From: Halorientalis salina
Lineage (GTDB): Archaea; Halobacteriota; Halobacteria; Halobacteriales; Haloarculaceae
NCBI RefSeq assembly: GCF_005049285.1
Contig: NZ_SOSC01000010.1
Coordinates: 1 to 64,000, forward strand
DNA: 64,000 bases
Reading direction: 5' to 3'
Both the position numbers and the translations under genes were made by a program. Positions 52,414 through 53,317 of the stretch are shown in pieces. A model generated the notes under the pieces. It was not told the DNA's origin and ran no database searches. It saw nothing but the letters and a program-made list of their open reading frames with translations. Position 1 is the first letter of the stretch; every line of letters begins with the position of its first letter.

Positions 52414-52647
52414 ATGGAGGCAACCATCTCAGACACTCGCTTGAATCAGGTGTCCGAGCCTGACCTGGTCCTCTCGTTTATTCCGGGACCGCTGCTAGTG
52501 GCGGTTGTCGTCGGCTTCCTCGTGGGGGTCCCGCTCTCGCTGGCGCTGGCAGCCGGGAGTCTGCCCGCGAGCGCCGCGATGGGATACGCGCTGTTCTACG
52601 CTCCGCCGATCGACGGCGAGGAGAGGGCTGGAGAGACGCAGCCGTAG
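52414..52647 (+). CDS. Small haloarchaeal membrane protein
   Basis: The 77-residue protein has a polar N-terminus (MEATISDTRLNQVSEPD) and two helices (LVAVVVGFLVGVPLSLALAAG and SAAMGYALFYAP) before a short acidic tail. It resembles small hairpin membrane proteins of haloarchaea. The start could also be the GTG at 52408. A TATA box supports 52414. Function unknown. It is followed by the terminator-like hairpin array. Confidence 0.6.
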   Translation: MEATISDTRLNQVSEPDLVLSFIPGPLLVAVVVGFLVGVPLSLALAAGSLPASAAMGYALFYAPPIDGEERAGETQP

Positions 52648-52710
52648 CAGGCGGGTGAGAACCGCTGGTTTCGCCGAATCCGATAGCGAAGAAGTTGTCG
52701 TTTCCAGCAT

Positions 52711-52949
52711 CGGGCGAGCTTGCTCGCCGGTTCACCGGAAGACGCGGAGCGTCTTCCGAGCCTGCGTTCGTGCGGGCCACTCACACAGACACCGCCAGAG
52801 CGGGCTTTGCCCGCGGAGGCGGCTTTTTGGCATCATCAGAACCGCAAAGCGGTTCTGATTGGCAGTCAGAACGCCCCGCGTTCTGACAGCATCAACGGGT
52901 TTTGCCGGGGGTTGAGGCGGGCGTCGAAGACGCCCGCCGATGCCCCCGG
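52711..52949. repeat. Array of six tight hairpins between convergent genes
   Basis: Six perfect inverted repeats with 2-3 base loops lie in 239 bases: 52713-52728 (7 bp, TT), 52736-52758 (10 bp, GGA), 52800-52814 (6 bp, TTT), 52835-52859 (11 bp, AAA), 52865-52887 (10 bp, CCC) and 52916-52938 (10 bp, GAA). All but the first have a three-base loop closed by C-G. The last is enclosed by a second stem, CCGGGGG (52905-52911) with CCCCCGG (52943-52949). The fourth and fifth share TCAGAAC arms. No frame, CRISPR spacer pattern or transposase explains them. Confidence 0.85.
52792..52828 (+). terminator. Probable intrinsic terminator of the small membrane protein gene
   Basis: An outer stem CCGCC (52792-52796) with GGCGG (52818-52822), the inner GCGGGC/GCCCGC stem at 52800-52814 and a T5 run at 52824-52828 form a textbook stem-loop with a T tract on the plus strand. 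The gene at 52414-52647 would end here. Archaeal termination relies mainly on the T run. Confidence 0.6.
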
Positions 52950-52963
52950 GAAAAGAGGTTGTA

Positions 52964-53317
52964 TTATTGCGCGGTCGGCGACGCGGAGTTGGCCATCGCC
53001 TGCTTGACCTGCAGGGCGGCGCTGGCGGCGAGTCCCTGTGCGATGTCGGTCCGTTCGTCCTCGCCGATGCGGAGGTCGGCGGTGTCGTCGGGCGTGTAGC
53101 CGGCACTGACCATGGAGCCGACGGGGGGCTGGACGGCGACGGTCGCCCGGGGACCTTCGGGGCTGGCGGAGAGTTCCAGCCCGACGGCGAAGTCGTCGGG
53201 GAGCAACTCGCGGGTCCGCGCGGCGACGTTGGCGAGATCGCTCCGGAGGTGCCGCCGCTGCTCGGCGTTCAGGGTGGGCACGTCGTCGGAACTCCCGAAG
53301 GAAGTGTTTCCGTACAT
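52964..53317 (-). CDS. Conserved haloarchaeal protein (DUF5811-like)
   Basis: The 117-residue protein begins MYGNTSFGSSDDVPTLNAEQ, has ARTRELLPDDFAVGLELSAS and VQPPVGSMVSAGYTPDD, and ends with GLAASAALQVKQAMANS. From memory this matches the haloarchaeal DUF5811 family. It is all-cytoplasmic with no catalytic motif seen. It lies 40 bases downstream of the arginine decarboxylase on the same strand and ends against the hairpin array. Confidence 0.7.
   Translation of the reverse strand: MYGNTSFGSSDDVPTLNAEQRRHLRSDLANVAARTRELLPDDFAVGLELSASPEGPRATVAVQPPVGSMVSAGYTPDDTADLRIGEDERTDIAQGLAASAALQVKQAMANSASPTAQ

Follow-up and report, generated by a model that had tools for sequence, protein, structure and literature searches.

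What kind of element is formed by six small hairpins packed between the 3' ends of two convergent genes? The question is raised by a locus in a 64-kb stretch of DNA (64,000 nucleotides; the whole stretch that was analysed, hereafter the window), for which a preliminary description had reported six hairpins in succession, five of them with three-base loops closed by C-G, between convergent genes. All six hairpins were recovered where that description had placed them, C-G closes all five triloops, and the array is indeed flanked by convergent genes at their 3' borders. Two parts of the structure had escaped it, namely the stem that closes around the last hairpin and the T5 run at 52824-52828. 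It had rightly set the array apart from simple repeats and CRISPR, and such an origin was rejected here as well, only short chance repeats being found. The features are the following, without strand unless one is given.

52414-52647, + strand: small flanking gene, 78 codons including the stop codon, conserved in congeners
52705-52961: whole composite element, set by the frame that it has in common with other copies and by its fold
52713-52728: hairpin 1, 7 bp with a TT loop, between GCATC and GGTTCAC as in other copies
52734-52790: module M2 (57 nt), an insertion that a matching copy lacks and that recurs elsewhere
52736-52758: triloop hairpin of M2, 10 bp, CGGAAGACGC-GGA; M2 also has a second, irregular part
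52792-52822: frame hairpin 2, a CCGCC/GGCGG outer pair enclosing GCGGGC-TTT-GCCCGC
52800-52814: inner stem of frame hairpin 2, 6 bp, TTT loop
52824-52828, + strand: first T-run (T5), a T-tract on the + strand, the same in G102
52829-52892: long spacer with two triloop hairpins that have TCAGAAC in common
52835-52859: spacer hairpin with an AAA loop, 11 bp
52865-52887: spacer hairpin with a CCC loop, 10 bp
52893-52961: closing stem and last hairpin, CAAC-GGG-TTTT-(CCGGGGG-TGA-GGCGGGCGTC GAA GACGCCCGCC-...)-AAAA-GAG-GTTG
52916-52938: last hairpin, 10 bp, GAA loop, nested in a 7-bp outer stem
52951-52954, - strand: A4 run, which is the T-tract CTCTTTTC on the - strand
52964-53317, - strand: flanking gene, 117 amino acids, conserved in congeners

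As delimited, the element starts on the GCATC side and ends where the closing stem has its foot, the left boundary being provisional. The closing stem around the last hairpin has 33-nt arms that are 76% complementary, and it appears also in the DNA folds. The T5 run of the + strand lies about 177 nt past the stop codon of the + strand gene, and the T4 run of the - strand about 10 nt past that of the - strand gene.

The hairpin cluster is real and far from chance. No other triloop stem in the window is as long as its four perfect ones of 10-11 bp. When the 261-nt stretch is folded as single-stranded DNA, the + strand gives -92.5 kcal/mol and z = -10.6 and the - strand z = -9.9, values that 0 of 200 shuffles reached in either case. 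An equal density in shuffled or ordinary intergenic DNA had been named in the preliminary description as speaking against it; the density proved far above that of simulated DNA in 1.25 Mb of the same genome, about a third of it. Intergenic DNA there holds 30 triloop stems of at least 9 bp, where a third-order Markov model predicts 1.05, and 13 stretches with at least two triloop stems of at least 8 bp against 0.05 expected in simulated intergenic DNA; the intergenic triloop density is also above that of coding DNA. A chance effect of GC content was ruled out by Markov and dinucleotide controls. Among triloops with stems of at least 8 bp, C-G closes 46 of the 48 intergenic ones and 39 of the 91 coding ones, and the loop is GNA or TNC in 28 and 14 of them, respectively.

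Other arrays of this kind were seen in passing. Four successive triloop hairpins with short, even spacing (stems TCGACGCGAC, GTGAATC, CGACGCGGC and GCCAATC) lie at G000:C18:89387-89479 in the same genome, outside the frame of T- and A-runs described below, and at G000:C18:240880-241000 tandem triloop hairpins made of NAVEHGSTSNRTSSDDAVEHGG-like repeats fall in the ATPase domain of an apparent histidine kinase, the hairpin DNA being kept in frame. Four loci from other haloarchaeal families (L335, L336, L339, L343) have arrays of between three and five hairpins, with stems of 9-11 bp, loops of 3 nt and linkers of roughly 5 nt, near a conserved TAGCA-GTCAGAACGC...GACATC.

Stretches matching the array recur in its own genome and in many relatives, and they are organised in a repeated frame, GCATC-hairpin-GGTTCAC-hairpin-TTTTT-spacer-TTTT(T)-hairpin-AAAA(A)-right end, with a spacer that is usually 8 nt long. 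This frame occurs about 20 times in the 1.25 Mb, the first hairpin is missing in some copies, and its inner part spans 23 to about 250 nt. Copies within the genome differ in nearly all stems, and stems differ also between species at one site, while the T-runs are unchanged and the bases that adjoin them covary. The long spacer of the array is 91% identical over 77 nt to a stretch in a genome of another family (G102), within the same T5...A4 frame and again between convergent genes. The array is a single representative of a mosaic DNA element that consists of swappable mini-hairpins and is found between genes across haloarchaea, and the copy at 52705-52961 is a subtype of the frame in which the spacer is long and one module has been inserted. 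Our literature searches on haloarchaeal hairpin repeats, which covered mainly papers outside the subscription journals, returned no description of this element.

The two ends of the frame are coupled. The last bases of the spacer are complementary to the first bases past the A-run, and both change together between copies: AGCGTAGA goes with GGTAC in 15 of 15 copies, CACCCATG with GATGG in 12 of 12, and ATACTAAA and GTACTAAA with TTTAG in 5 of 5. The mean complementarity of spacer and right end is 3.46, as compared with 2.41 in shuffled pairings (maximum 2.64). Since several spacer/right-end classes are found in one genome and a single class spans several genera, the coupling is not explained by shared ancestry alone.

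Smaller modules are nested in the frame. A matching copy in the same genome (G000:C18, near 35663) is without M2 and reads GGTTCACCGCCAGAGCGGGC, and M2 occupies the same frame position in L024 and L120; in L002 and L025 it lies elsewhere in the frame, inside the spacer. A sister module, M1, consists of two hairpins with the linker TGACCATGCGA and a GAGCAGA end; it is absent from the array at this locus. A covariance model built from 31 copies of M1 found it in at least 114 of 145 related genomes and at least 41 of 51 genera (lower bounds, as few candidates were scored per genome), the hosts including Haloarcula, Halomicrobium, Natrinema, Halorientalis, Halococcus and Natronomonas. At the frame position TTTTTGCGAG^GAGTGG, M1 is present in 53 cases and absent in 91. 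It is located at other places of the frame in L118, L160 and L192, beside or within tnpB genes in five further loci (L095, L096, L107, L115, L117), and also between codirectional and divergent genes.

The stems of M1 are maintained by compensatory change. In 113 aligned copies 97.5% of the cells pair, both sides have changed in 18 of the 19 pairs, and the double-change cells number 246 as compared with 46.7 in shuffles, none of 500 shuffles reaching that count. Decay of the stems without compensation, which the preliminary description had named as speaking against it, is thus not what the sister module shows. RNA helices selected on one strand should favour G-U pairs. The M1 cells include 31 G-U, 25 A-C and 1975 Watson-Crick combinations, with no excess of G-U over A-C, so that what is constrained is the pairing of DNA or that of both strands equally; compensation of this type points to DNA folding, or to pairing required on both strands. 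A structured RNA, regulatory or scaffold, that is transcribed from one strand would be in line with covariation as strong as in structured RNAs and with the conserved, unpaired linkers, among them a tandem G-A/G-A that never varies and is flanked by a compensated pair. We nevertheless regard such an RNA as very improbable, given that the G-U excess is lacking, that T-tracts lie within the frame on both strands, that closely related species differ in copy number and modular make-up and that no Rfam family matches: with the Rfam 15 covariance models nothing came near the gathering score over the array or M1, and in 18 related loci only nearby tRNAs scored above their own.

Comparison of equivalent sites, made at the species level with one genome per species, revealed that presence of the element at a site differs between species. 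In six congeners the ends of the flanking genes, taken as the distance between the ends of DNA matches, are 8-74 nt apart as compared with 342 nt here, and the array is lacking in all six; in a seventh (L012, G005) a tnpB-type sequence fills the convergent border that carries the array here. Because all seven congeners are without the array, its gain here is the simplest reading. In genus g14 the 3' end of one gene is followed by a whole element in three genomes (G020, G038, G145), by a variant in G061, by half an element in G049, by a remnant in G146 and by none in G119. Each genome has hairpins of its own there, although the identity of the gene itself is 86-96%.

Direct repeats flank 17 of 120 copies: what precedes the element, often the 3' end of a gene, is found again behind it. 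For 14 of the 17, this second occurrence sets in 3-10 nt beyond the A-run or nearby. The cases counted score at least 17, whereas random pairings reached 15.4; four of them (L061, L303, L304, L314) involve the same gene and some share an ancestral event, which lowers the number of independent cases. The position of the junction at the foot of the terminal stem marks this foot as the right end of the element, and the direct repeats are read as putative duplications that are precise at the right end. Simple target-site duplications were rejected, since several cases (L303, L314) consist of the gene end and the element in tandem, and since one ancestral event is common to some of them. At L314 (G020:C1, near 4262041-4262333) the gene 3' end and the element stand in tandem as nearly identical units.

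Another proposal is that perfect hairpins arise and are repaired through template switching on folded strands, a process at the DNA level, with neither a function nor an element as such behind them. Stems that are nearly always perfect on both strands would be its natural product, and it would also fit the loops, which at one oriented position are GNA or the reverse complement TNC with few intermediates (33 and 17 of 69 for P2, 15 and 55 of 90 for P3), as well as direct repeats that start at the foot of the closing stem. However, linkers, T-runs and coupled ends that are conserved across families need common descent, which the process alone does not give, and for loops of 6 to 9 nt, hairpins are hardly, if at all, commoner in intergenic than in coding DNA. 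As a complete account we consider it distinctly unlikely.

The position of the hairpins relative to genes is strongly biased. In the same genome, convergent gene pairs have 0.96 hairpins per kb between them, codirectional pairs 0.29 and divergent pairs 0.08, the orientation classes being approximate because genes were called by our own codon-usage script. In Haloferax, termination reached 95% of transcripts with T5C and 59% with a hairpin that was tested, and a T-tract alone suffices for termination (PMC7237163). The T-tracts of the element probably terminate transcription from both sides; RNA covering the whole terminal stem would then be rare, and this rarity would favour DNA as the folding strand. 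Could the array be primarily a selected two-way terminator or 3'-end element, with a T-tract soon past the stop codon on each strand and hairpins that protect 3' ends, spread by recombination rather than by transposition? The bias to convergent 3' borders, the constant T-runs beside covarying bases and the absence of strand bias in M1 pairing, which fits a need on both strands, are consistent with it, and both T-tracts and one hairpin do end transcripts in Haloferax (PMC7237163). Yet a T-tract that suffices by itself (PMC7237163) makes nested hairpins superfluous, six congeners manage the same convergent border without an array, and M1 is found also between codirectional and divergent genes and in tnpB. 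We consider this reading unlikely.

On balance, we favour as reasonably probable the explanation that the array is a copy of a non-autonomous modular hairpin element, related in kind to small mobile repeats and located at the 3' border of convergent genes, whose hairpins act as DNA structures and whose T-tracts probably terminate transcription both ways. The frame would carry smaller hairpin modules inserted into it, module movement being the putative cause. A single DNA strand exposed in replication or strand transfer would fold into perfect triloop hairpins and may be the form recognised in vivo; the terminal stem would close the folded strand, with its foot as the right end. The element would be tolerated at gene 3' ends, where T-tracts on both strands probably end transcripts arriving from either side. 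It looks mobile, although the copies within one genome are unlike a recent burst from one master copy. The preliminary description had been right to single out the uniform triloops, and the two-way terminator, DNA structure and hairpin-making process that it proposed all had to be weighed here, but the family, the nesting and the absence from congeners had gone unnoticed in it.

In the IS200/IS605 group, the Y1 transposase reads single-stranded ends whose subterminal hairpins are recognised by shape, and at IS608/IS605 ends the cleavage site, which follows the hairpin, base-pairs with a guide sequence located ahead of that hairpin. A bolder version of the favoured explanation, which we hold as possible but doubtful, is that the frame is a single-stranded-DNA mobile end whose spacer would be a guide pairing with the right-end cleavage site as in IS608, so that guide and site would change together; the stems would be continually rewritten by DNA-level copying and not only inherited, and the elements would make up a haloarchaea-wide self-nesting class. 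These elements occur in most of the haloarchaeal genera tested and yet are absent from the RNA library searched, and their large-scale compensatory change without G-U excess makes them a natural system in which to study how DNA forms hairpins in living cells. They bear as well on how small hairpins move without an obvious enzyme and on how transcription ends at convergent archaeal genes.

How does the element compare with known systems? The guide/cleavage pairing of IS200/IS605 ends resembles, by analogy, that of spacer and right end here, and the element differs in having no transposase inside; the frame was not found around a transposase. Three Y1 genes are present in the same genome, and a Y1 transposase was not seen in some M1-rich genomes (G001, G029, G009), a distribution that does not support it as an obligate mobiliser. 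In one subfamily of the tnpB genes of the same genome, 3 of 10 examined, paired triloop hairpins built like the TCAGAAC pair stand at one or both ends (G000, C19:84283-85173, C19:105271-106846 and C19:216001-216045). That the TCAGAAC pair is a fresh IS605-type end was set aside, since the same long spacer stands in the same T5...A4 frame in another family. A viral or plasmid origin was also discarded (no phage match, three weak partial matches in viral contigs, and matches in 12 haloarchaeal replicons among plasmids).

With archaeal T-tract terminators the element has in common T4-T5 tracts shortly past stop codons on both strands, but those described so far do not require an intricate array of hairpins, nesting of modules or coupling of the ends (PMC7237163). 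The REP/BIME sequences of bacteria are likewise intergenic, present in many copies, mosaics of palindromes and linkers, and associated with gene 3' ends and termination (PMC2817692, PMC3733652), and the family described here is also an intergenic palindrome mosaic that avoids promoters. REPs keep a palindrome with a GTAG or CGTC tag (PMC3733652), whereas here it is the linkers that are conserved, the palindromes being free to vary.

The claim that no such array had been described holds for the architecture, within Rfam and the searchable papers, but the PATE and SMR repeats of Haloquadratum are close in kind (PMC3119063). SMR-A of Haloquadratum walsbyi resembles the element in its size of about 110 bp or less, its lack of coding capacity, its inverted-repeat build and its nesting inside palindromes of other elements and IS605-type transposons (PMC3119063); correspondingly, the closing stem gives the frame terminal inverted repeats, M1 and M2 lie within the frame, and M1 lies in or beside tnpB. 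SMR-A copies are reported to be highly conserved in sequence (PMC3119063), whereas in the present family the stems vary and the linkers, the T- and A-runs and the pairing are kept; the family is set apart from SMR-A (HqIRS42, HqIRS43, HqIRS55) by description rather than by sequence comparison. PATEs, which are related to IS605-type transposons, are like the element short, non-coding and haloarchaeal, with palindromes near their ends, but they are without terminal inverted repeats (PMC3119063), whereas the right part of the element is closed by an inverted, covarying stem with T- and A-runs. The family is thus filed under neither PATE nor SMR-A, though it behaves like both.
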